Positions 38,515 through 41,783 of a DNA stretch of 64,000 nt are shown piece by piece (position 1 is the first letter of the stretch; the number at the start of each line of letters is the position of its first letter). The DNA lies in contig JAABUB010000005.1 in assembly GCA_011389575.1 (NCBI GenBank), positions 1 through 64,000 of the forward strand, read 5' to 3'. The notes under the pieces are model-generated. The model made no database searches. It was not told the DNA's origin and saw nothing but the letters and a program-made list of their open reading frames with translations. Source of the DNA: Desulfotignum sp. (lineage in GTDB: Bacteria; Desulfobacterota; Desulfobacteria; Desulfobacterales; Desulfobacteraceae). Position numbers and translations under genes: made by a program.

Positions 38515-39483
38515 TTATGCTTTTACCGCCACCCGGCAGACCACATGTCTTTTACCCGGCAGTCCGGTATGATTTTCAAGTTCCAACCCTGAAAAAATAC
38601 CCACCTGGAGCCGGGCGAACATACTGCAGTCGTCCATGGCCGGCAACAGGTCTTCTGGCAGGTTATTCTGATTTTCCGGATATTGGTGTGTCACAATTTT
38701 TTCCAGTATATCCAAAAAATGATTTTGCCATTCAGGCCTGCGCACACAACCATGTTCATGCACTTTTATGTAACCAATGTCAAGGGCATTTATGAACCGG
38801 GGAGAAATTGCCGCAAGAAAGTCAAAAACCGCACTGCTGGTGGTGATAAGCACCATCGGCCGTTCACCTGCAAAAACGTTTTCTTCTCTGGCAAAAGCTG
38901 ACCACGCCCGGATACGTGCACCTGTCATAGACAAACCTGGATCCCGAAACCGTATCTGAGCTGTATCCGGCACGATGGCATCCGGATCTCCTCTCAGATC
39001 TGCAAACAGCGCAGCCCGCCTTTTTTCCAGATCAGCCAGTTCAGCATCAACGGCTGCATTATGGGCATCAGTGATCTGGGCAATCTTTAAAAACAGCAGG
39101 GGATCAACAGAAGGTGACGTCCCGATCTTACCGGGCACATCCTGCCGGATCCTGGCCCGAAGCTCAGACTGAATGACACCGGGTCCGGCATCATCGATAA
39201 AATAGGGACTGTCCTTGAGCAAAGACTTCAGGTTCCGCTGATTGCCCTTGTGCAGTGCTGCCCAGTCCAGCCAGGCTGCCACCTGAGACTCCACCTGCCC
39301 AAGGCGGTCGTCTGAGGTGAAGACAGGGGTTGCCACTTTTTTTTCCACCAAAGGCTTCATCGGGGAATTTTTGGGCAGGTCTGCTGCCAGGGGCAGATAT
39401 TGAAAATTGGGAAAAACCGTTGCCAAAGCCCTGCGCTGATGCTGGTCAACGTGGGAAAACGGAAAAAACACCATGTCCATCAT
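38515..39483 (-). CDS. Uncharacterised protein overlapping the cysK-cysS-like fusion gene
   Basis: 322 aa ORF MMDMVFFPFSHVDQHQRRALATVFPNFQYLPL...; start overlaps the stop of the upstream gene by 4 nt. Confidence 0.82.
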   Translation of the reverse strand: MMDMVFFPFSHVDQHQRRALATVFPNFQYLPLAADLPKNSPMKPLVEKKVATPVFTSDDRLGQVESQVAAWLDWAALHKGNQRNLKSLLKDSPYFIDDAGPGVIQSELRARIRQDVPGKIGTSPSVDPLLFLKIAQITDAHNAAVDAELADLEKRRAALFADLRGDPDAIVPDTAQIRFRDPGLSMTGARIRAWSAFAREENVFAGERPMVLITTSSAVFDFLAAISPRFINALDIGYIKVHEHGCVRRPEWQNHFLDILEKIVTHQYPENQNNLPEDLLPAMDDCSMFARLQVGIFSGLELENHTGLPGKRHVVCRVAVKA

Positions 39484-41783
39484 CTTATACCAACCTTTTG
39501 ATCATGTACCTGCACCCCTAAAGAAGCAAGCTTTTGTCTGATTTTGTCCGCGGTTTTCCAATCCTGGTTCTGCCGGGCTTCAGTCCGCTGCCTGAGAAGA
39601 TGTTTCACATCAGTGGAATATTGTTTTTTTTTGCTGAAATCGCATACCTGCAGGATATTGTCCATATCCCTGAACCCATCCAGAAGCTGGTTTGCATCAG
39701 CAGAACTGACCCGGTTTCGGGTCACCAAAGCATTAATTTTCCTGACATTGGCCAGAAGCCCGGCTATGGCTACAGAAATTTTCAAATCATCTGCCAGGGC
39801 GGTTAAAATGCCGTGGCGGATATCATAGACCAGCTGGTCTGTTTCCCCGTTGGACATCCCCTCTGTCATATTCCCGGACCTGATTTTTTCCAGAATCGCA
39901 ATACACCGGTTGATTTTGGCCAGGGTTGACTTTGCATCGGCAAGTGCCCGAAAAGATAATACCAGGCCTCTGCGGTAATGACCGGACAGAAGCCAGAAAC
40001 GGATGGTTCTATCATCCCACCCCTGGTCTGCCAGGGTATCAAGGGTGATATCATCCATGGATTTTTTCCCCAGAGAACCGTCATATCTTACCGGGTTGCA
40101 ATGCAGCCATATATTGGCCAGCTGCTGTCCGCATGCAGCCCTGGCAATGGCCCGTTCATTTTCATGGTGGGGAAATACCAGTTCCCGGCTGCCGGTATGG
40201 ATGTCAAAAGGCACACCCAGACAGGCCATGGACATGGCAGCACATTGCAGGTGCAAAGAAGGCCTGACAGTGCCCCATTCCGTTTTCAGACCTATCCCAT
40301 GGCGCAGCTCGGACAGGCGGACCCGCTTGAACAAGGTAAAATCTCTGGGGTTGTGTTTTTCATATTCATCCAGGTCCACAGTGCTTCCCAGCCTGATTTT
40401 ATGGATATCCATCTTGGACAATTGTCCATATTCAGGGACACTGGAGATATCAAAGTACACGGAATGCAGTTTTTCATAAGCATGGCCCTGATTAAACAGT
40501 TTGCGGGTCAGATCACTCATATCAGCGAAGTGGTCTGATACTTTAGGGTACGCCTGGGCCTGTCGGATCCTGAGGCGCGCAAGGTCTTGGGCAAAAGCCT
40601 CTATATGGGGGGTGGTAAAATCCTTGAGGGAACAGCCGGCCTGTTTTGCACCCTGGATGGTGCGGTCATCATAATCGGTAATATTGACCACGTGGTTGAC
40701 ATCTATCTTATGAAAAGCCAGGTACCGTACCAGCAGGTCTGTGAAGACAAACCGTCTGAAACGCCCGGGATTCAGACGCTGGTATACAGTGGGACCACAG
40801 GTATAAATGGACACAGTGTCTGGTTTCAAGGGCTTGAACCGCTGTTTTTCCGCTGTAAGGCTGTTAAACAGGTTCAAATGTATTTTGTTTTTCACTGAGA
40901 ACAGCGGTGTGGACAGATATCTTTCCCCGGAATCAGGAAAAATAACCACCACCACCCCTTTTTGCATCTGCCGGGCCTCTTTTATGGCAGCAGCCATGGC
41001 AGCACCGGAACTCATACCCACAAACAGCCCTTCACTGGATGCCAGTTGCCGGGCCGTATCAAAAGCCAGGTCATCATCTATATACAGCACCTGATCCAAT
41101 CTTTTCTTATCAAAAATTTCCGGGGTATAGGATTCTTTCATATTCTTGAGCCCTTGAATCCCATGGCCCAAAAAGGGTTCGGCACAGACAATTCTGGTGC
41201 CGGGACTGTTTTCCTTAAAGTACCGGGAAAGCCCCATCAGGGTGCCTGACGTTCCCACTGTGGCCACCACACTGGATATTTTCTGATGTACCTGTGACAC
41301 GATTTCCGGAGCTGTGGTATGATAATGGGCCTGCCAGTTGGCATCGTTGTTATACTGGTCAGTGATAAAATACGTATCCGGATTTTCCCGGGCCAGGCGG
41401 TAGGCTTCTTCAATGGCACCATCCGAGCCCAGATGCCGGGGTGTCAGAATGATTTTTGCCCCCCGGGCCCGAAGAATGTTTTTGCGTTCCTCGCTGGCAT
41501 TCTCCGCCATGGTCAGCGCAAGATGATAGCCTTTCACCGCACATATCATGGCCAGGCCGATACCGGTATTGCCCGAAGTGGCTTCAATAACGGTTTTTTC
41601 TTTGGTGAGCTGGCCGGATGCCTCGCCTGCAGTGATCATGTAGAGGGCAGCCCGGTCCTTGACAGATCCTCCGGGATTCATGTATTCCAGTTTGGCCAGT
41701 ATCTTCACCCCGGGCACAGGATTCATCCGCACAATTTCCACAACCGGGGTGTTACCGATGGCATCTATGATGGAGTCTATCAT
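39480..41783 (-). CDS. Cysteine synthase (CysK) fused to cysteinyl-tRNA synthetase-like domain with degenerate signature motifs
   Basis: N-terminus NPGGSVKDRAALYMI, TSGNTGIGLAMI, GERYLSTPLF (CysK); C-terminus YTCGPTVYQRLNPGRFRRFVFTDLLVRYL...LHLQCAAMS...FPHHENERAIARA (CysRS fold). Confidence 0.93.
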   Translation of the reverse strand: MIDSIIDAIGNTPVVEIVRMNPVPGVKILAKLEYMNPGGSVKDRAALYMITAGEASGQLTKEKTVIEATSGNTGIGLAMICAVKGYHLALTMAENASEERKNILRARGAKIILTPRHLGSDGAIEEAYRLARENPDTYFITDQYNNDANWQAHYHTTAPEIVSQVHQKISSVVATVGTSGTLMGLSRYFKENSPGTRIVCAEPFLGHGIQGLKNMKESYTPEIFDKKRLDQVLYIDDDLAFDTARQLASSEGLFVGMSSGAAMAAAIKEARQMQKGVVVVIFPDSGERYLSTPLFSVKNKIHLNLFNSLTAEKQRFKPLKPDTVSIYTCGPTVYQRLNPGRFRRFVFTDLLVRYLAFHKIDVNHVVNITDYDDRTIQGAKQAGCSLKDFTTPHIEAFAQDLARLRIRQAQAYPKVSDHFADMSDLTRKLFNQGHAYEKLHSVYFDISSVPEYGQLSKMDIHKIRLGSTVDLDEYEKHNPRDFTLFKRVRLSELRHGIGLKTEWGTVRPSLHLQCAAMSMACLGVPFDIHTGSRELVFPHHENERAIARAACGQQLANIWLHCNPVRYDGSLGKKSMDDITLDTLADQGWDDRTIRFWLLSGHYRRGLVLSFRALADAKSTLAKINRCIAILEKIRSGNMTEGMSNGETDQLVYDIRHGILTALADDLKISVAIAGLLANVRKINALVTRNRVSSADANQLLDGFRDMDNILQVCDFSKKKQYSTDVKHLLRQRTEARQNQDWKTADKIRQKLASLGVQVHDQKVGIR

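Follow-up and report, generated by a model that had tools for sequence, protein, structure and literature searches.

The HisRS-like domain of GCN2 is a dead synthetase domain that governs another activity. HisZ, of the HisZ-HisG pair, is likewise a dead synthetase and regulates the synthesis of its own amino acid (PMC9437257). Among paralogs of cysteinyl-tRNA synthetase (CysRS), MshC acts outside translation and uses ATP, and the Desulfobacterales have a second CysRS paralog, CysRS* (Mukai et al. 2017), an enzyme without the anticodon domain that acts on selC* tRNA and is encoded beside selB*/selC* (PMC7609411). While repurposed synthetase paralogs are therefore already known, the fusion analysed here appears to be new in its architecture, spread and context, and a search of the open-access literature, reaching only a minority of subscription papers, found no published description of it.

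The gene lies in a window of 64,000 nucleotides (the whole stretch of DNA that was analysed) from a Desulfotignum sp. and joins a cysteine synthase to a CysRS-like region. The synthase half shares the fold, the PLP motifs and the positive substrate-loop residue of CysM/CysK enzymes, O-phosphoserine sulfhydrylase included, and differs from them in the CysRS-derived region added to it. This added region has the fold of cysteinyl-tRNA synthetase, its zinc site (in the window protein) and its anticodon module with the G34-contacting residues, but HIGH, GxD and KMSKS are lost, it is fused, and a canonical copy exists elsewhere in the genome. Like MshC, it is a CysRS paralog outside translation, but it has lost the ATP site that MshC uses; unlike CysRS*, it keeps the anticodon-binding domain. 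The likeness to HisZ and the GCN2 domain is one of working principle only: both are of class II HisRS origin and not homologous to the fusion region, which has the class I CysRS fold. The features of the locus are as follows.

38515..39483, minus strand: downstream 322-aa gene, with an ATGA overlap with the fusion; candidate partner (homologs beside other fusions)
39480..41783, minus strand: fusion gene, CysM/CysK-type cysteine synthase plus CysRS-like region, 767 aa, ATG start (ORF, Pfam, AlphaFold2 model)
40896..41783, minus strand: cysteine synthase half, residues 1-296 (PALP 1e-70; TIGR01136; CysM 2bhs fold)
41658..41660, minus strand: PLP Schiff-base lysine K42 in SVKDR (K in 168/168 fusions)
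41145..41147, minus strand: K213, positive residue of the substrate loop, equivalent to E. coli CysM R210 (alignment; K in 168/168 fusions)
39483..40877, minus strand: CysRS-like half, residues 303-767 (tRNA-synt_1e 4e-72; CysRS fold; single fusion clade)
40797..40799, minus strand: zinc ligand C329, E. coli C28 (alignment)
40761..40772, minus strand: degenerate HIGH position, residues 338-341, NPGR (alignment)
40242..40244, minus strand: zinc ligand C514, E. coli C209 (alignment)
40155..40169, minus strand: HHENE with zinc ligands H539 and E543, E. coli H234 and E238 (alignment)
40059..40073, minus strand: degenerate KMSKS position, residues 571-575, LGKKS (alignment)
39483..39626, minus strand: C-terminal anticodon-binding module, residues 720-767 (CysS_C; five invariant positions, each kept at 98-99%)

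An earlier note on this DNA had read the 767-aa frame as a complete CysK-type synthase followed by a CysRS-like fold, which domain and structure comparisons bear out. Pfam places PALP at residues 7-284, tRNA-synt_1e at 316-618 and CysS_C at 723-763; the protein reaches 353 bits with the TIGR01136 cysKM model (cut-off 344) and, at 331 bits, misses the TIGR00435 CysRS model of NCBIfam (cut-off 340). Both folds are present in an AlphaFold2 model built with 19 family members as input (pLDDT 83.8, pTM 0.58), which matches the CysRS structures 8qhp (TMt 0.90) and 1u0b (TMt 0.82) as well as CysM 2bhs (TMt 0.92).

Residues of the CysRS-like half were numbered by alignment to E. coli CysRS (1li5) together with the family alignment. 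The HIGH region reads CGPTVYQRLNPGRFRR and the KMSKS region DGSLGKKSMDDITL, exactly as quoted in the earlier note, which had rightly called both motifs lost. In the ATP site, H37, H40, D229 and K266 of the E. coli enzyme are replaced by N338, R341, E534 and L571, and the K269 column holds K574, a lysine found there in only about 5% of the family. The zinc-site residues were also correctly described as kept, all four ligands (C28, C209, H234 and E238) being present as C329, C514, H539 and E543; W205 corresponds to L510. R733, R737, W742, D746, R749 and D761 of the anticodon module are equivalent to E. coli R423, R427, W432, D436, R439 and D451, of which R423, R427, W432 and D436 contact G34 of tRNA-Cys in the E. 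coli CysRS complex (PMC12684709). The earlier note's reading of the region as a CysRS paralog is supported, a canonical cysS being present elsewhere in the genome, and so is its view that normal ATP and aminoacylation chemistry should not be expected; the CysRS-like region of the window protein very probably does not aminoacylate.

A sequencing error as the source of the motif changes was ruled out because the same trend is seen across 168 distinct homologous fusions, compiled from a first set of 99, mostly from the order, and a phylum set of 69. An initial search of the genome collection gave 18 near-full-length fusions; at E 1e-140 or better, matches that were nearly all whole-length were present in 98 of 116 genomes of the order and in 117 of 297 genomes of the phylum sample, and named loci include Desulfocicer, Desulfotignum, Desulforapulum and Desulfopila (Desulfobacterota/Thermodesulfobacteriota). 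In a 94-row tree every fusion falls on one side of a single branch (SH-aLRT 99), apart from the phylum's own canonical CysRS, and the nearest group contains Acidobacteriota, Verrucomicrobiota and one Nanohalarchaeota sequence; the simplest reading is that the fusion arose once, long ago, and has since been inherited mostly vertically. In two genomes (G110 and G004), what look like stand-alone or split copies are probably contig-end effects, the G110 match stopping 5 bases short of the contig end. Between the window fusion and its nearest relative (L005), dN/dS is 0.065 for the CysK half and 0.123 for the CysRS half, and close pairs range over 0.03-0.19 and 0.04-0.33, respectively. The CysRS half is thus under purifying selection (dN/dS about 0.12), and the low dN/dS together with the 168 homologous fusions led us to reject a pseudogene.

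Three side observations concern the distribution. Two genomes carry two diverged fusion copies each (L169 and L177 in G073; L165 and L171 in G100). Five genomes of the order apparently lack the fusion; their CysM-like protein (L179-L183) stands alone and shares about 50-52% identity with the synthase half. One fusion (L217, on G241:C2) lies inside a 1403-aa open frame, which could be an extra fused domain or a chance open frame.

The degenerate motifs are common to other fusions of this type, as the earlier note had thought worth checking: KMSKS is absent in all 99 fusions of the first set and a HIGH-like motif in 94, the other five having one. Across the phylum there is a gradient, with few near-canonical fusions, many intermediates and one group also without the zinc site (L244, L246, L247, L250-L255 and L258-L260), so that a single clade offers a natural evolutionary series from a near-intact to a fully dead synthetase. 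Canonical invariants are kept in the 168 fusions at 39% in the ATP site, 86% in the Zn/Cys site, 99% in the anticodon module and 80% in the rest, and in the 16 zinc-lost fusions at 19%, 39%, 100% and 64%, the anticodon values referring to five strictly invariant positions only, which may partly have structural roles. The synthase half is intact, its PLP lysine and its substrate and phosphate loops being invariant or nearly so.

The search for a separate cysS that the earlier note had called for found a canonical gene with HIGHAR and KMSKS on another contig of the window's genome (G000:C10). Indeed, a second, much higher-scoring CysRS was present in all 49 fusion genomes checked, a count that leaves out G198, which was in the list but has no fusion. 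The fusion as sole CysRS was thereby rejected, and the CysRS-like region is therefore free of translation duty. In 28 of 50 genomes, including several one-contig assemblies at 99-100% completeness, a search with the cysKM model at 1e-50 brings up no CysK/CysM-family match other than the fusion. A strong CysE match was found in none of 24 such fusion-only genomes, whereas all 11 genomes with a second CysK had one (Fisher p 2.4e-9, 35 genomes); weaker CysE matches were to shorter proteins, in G092 and G193. No SepCysS was found in 25 genomes, and a SepCysS-type tRNA-dependent cysteine route was rejected on this ground; fusion-only genomes may still harbour an acetyltransferase that escaped detection, or may obtain cysteine in another way. 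The window's own genome carries a separate cysE-cysK pair (L085 and L090, G000:C44), so cysteine synthesis there does not depend on the fusion alone.

How cysteine is made in bacteria without CysE is often unclear, and the best reading of these patterns is that the fusion is a CysE-independent cysteine synthase. K213, aligned with E. coli CysM R210, is invariant, and we take it to occupy the position of Arg297 in the A. pernix enzyme. Arg297 recognises phosphoserine in A. pernix, and T. kodakarensis, which has no clear CysE, has a CysK with Lys at that position (PMC5120207). The invariant K213 and the absent CysE therefore suggest O-phosphoserine, as argued for T. kodakarensis; by this analogy the substrates are probably O-phosphoserine and sulfide, K213 itself being only a suggestive pointer to such activity.

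We tentatively propose that the fusion combines a working CysE-independent synthase with a non-aminoacylating domain that docks tRNA-Cys and couples synthesis to charging. The PLP synthase half would make cysteine independently of serine acetyltransferase, the CysRS-derived region would no longer form cysteinyl-adenylate, the retained anticodon module would dock tRNA-Cys, and the charging state of the docked tRNA would set cysteine synthesis; where the zinc site persists, as in most lineages and in the window protein, free cysteine might also be sensed. The tRNA binding, the regulation and the substrate are the parts that we infer. Judging from the retained residues, the CysRS-like region may well, on balance, bind tRNA-Cys; that tRNA-Cys charging controls the synthase is possible, if somewhat doubtful, and a phylum-wide CysE-independent synthase controlled by, or acting on, tRNA-Cys through an inactivated CysRS domain in one polypeptide seems rather unlikely. 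If the proposal is true, one bacterial polypeptide would both make cysteine and adjust that synthesis to the charging of tRNA-Cys. This connection between tRNA charging and the synthesis of an amino acid can be tested directly. In any case, many genomes from a major sulfur-cycling phylum have, as their sole recognisable CysK/CysM-family enzyme, one that is physically tied to a decayed synthetase which keeps its anticodon reader.

Part of the proposal could be dispensed with if the zinc pocket bound free cysteine and exerted feedback on the fused synthase with no tRNA role, in the manner of HisZ (PMC9437257). The earlier note had suggested such a cysteine sensor regulating CysK, and it is possible because 101 of the 168 fusions have all four zinc ligands; three remain in 43 more, and the 86% retention of the Zn/Cys invariants fits as well. 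However, several lineages keep the fusion and have lost the zinc site, 16 sequences have one ligand only, and the zinc state changes at least 5 times on the tree. Furthermore, the residue equivalent to W205 is Leu in the window protein, and the retained anticodon residues would be left unexplained. We consider a sensor of this kind, acting alone, unlikely.

It is more doubtful still that the region is a stability or oligomerisation domain without a ligand, its conservation being structural. The fold-defining Y436, Y452-G453, D481-F482 and F537-P538 are invariant, ligand residues decay in some lineages, and many catalytic-domain positions with other roles are conserved as strongly as the anticodon positions, whose retention gave a Mann-Whitney p of 0.007 in the zinc-lost sequences and 0.10 across all fusions, on rows that are related. 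Against a purely structural role stand the low dN/dS, the polar anticodon residues kept at 98-100% and the fusion-specific polar invariants R344, R487 and Y474. D436, R439 and the aromatic residue at 432 change once each on the tree; at W432, 33 fusions have F or Y, a substitution that many canonical CysRS share.

The kept anticodon module and the constant co-occurrence of a separate CysRS would also suit a scaffold or channel that would place the synthase next to tRNA-Cys and the canonical enzyme, so that new cysteine could be loaded on the spot, with no allosteric sensing, but two proteins reading one anticodon would compete, and we regard this arrangement as improbable.

That the protein is still a working CysRS, possibly one that charges a special tRNA just as CysRS* serves selC* tRNA, is very improbable. 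Such activity would suit three near-canonical fusions elsewhere in the phylum (L191, L207 and L208), in which HLGN and KMSRS are found and the zinc site is full; by these features they can possibly still activate cysteine, although the genomes tested have a separate CysRS. However, KMSKS is missing in the window protein as in the whole first set, CysRS* lacks the anticodon domain (PMC7609411) that the window protein keeps, and no selC-like tRNA was found in the window, its only tRNA gene being a tRNA-Ser. Separately, we noticed third CysRS-like ORFs in two genomes (G400:C32:31657-32559 and G381:C34:19151-20050, in open frames of 476 and 424 aa), which could be CysRS*.

The MshC-like, ATP-dependent cysteine ligase that the earlier note had also offered is hardly credible: MshC, likewise a paralog of CysRS, has a similar fold (3c8z, TMt 0.85), but it needs the ATP site, which the fusion has lost, the TIGR03447 MshC model gives the protein 154 bits where its cut-off is 485, and there are no conserved biosynthetic neighbours across the phylum.

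No conserved operon or farther neighbours of the fusion were seen across the phylum. The downstream 322-aa protein has no Pfam family over cut-off and no fold match in the PDB; it evolves fast, and F7-P8, H78, R190 and A193-W194 are invariant among 14 aligned members. A homolog of this gene lies beside 82 of the 99 first-set fusion loci and 4 of the 69 phylum-set loci, and since the latter include the near-canonical L207 and L208, the association of the two genes is probably old.
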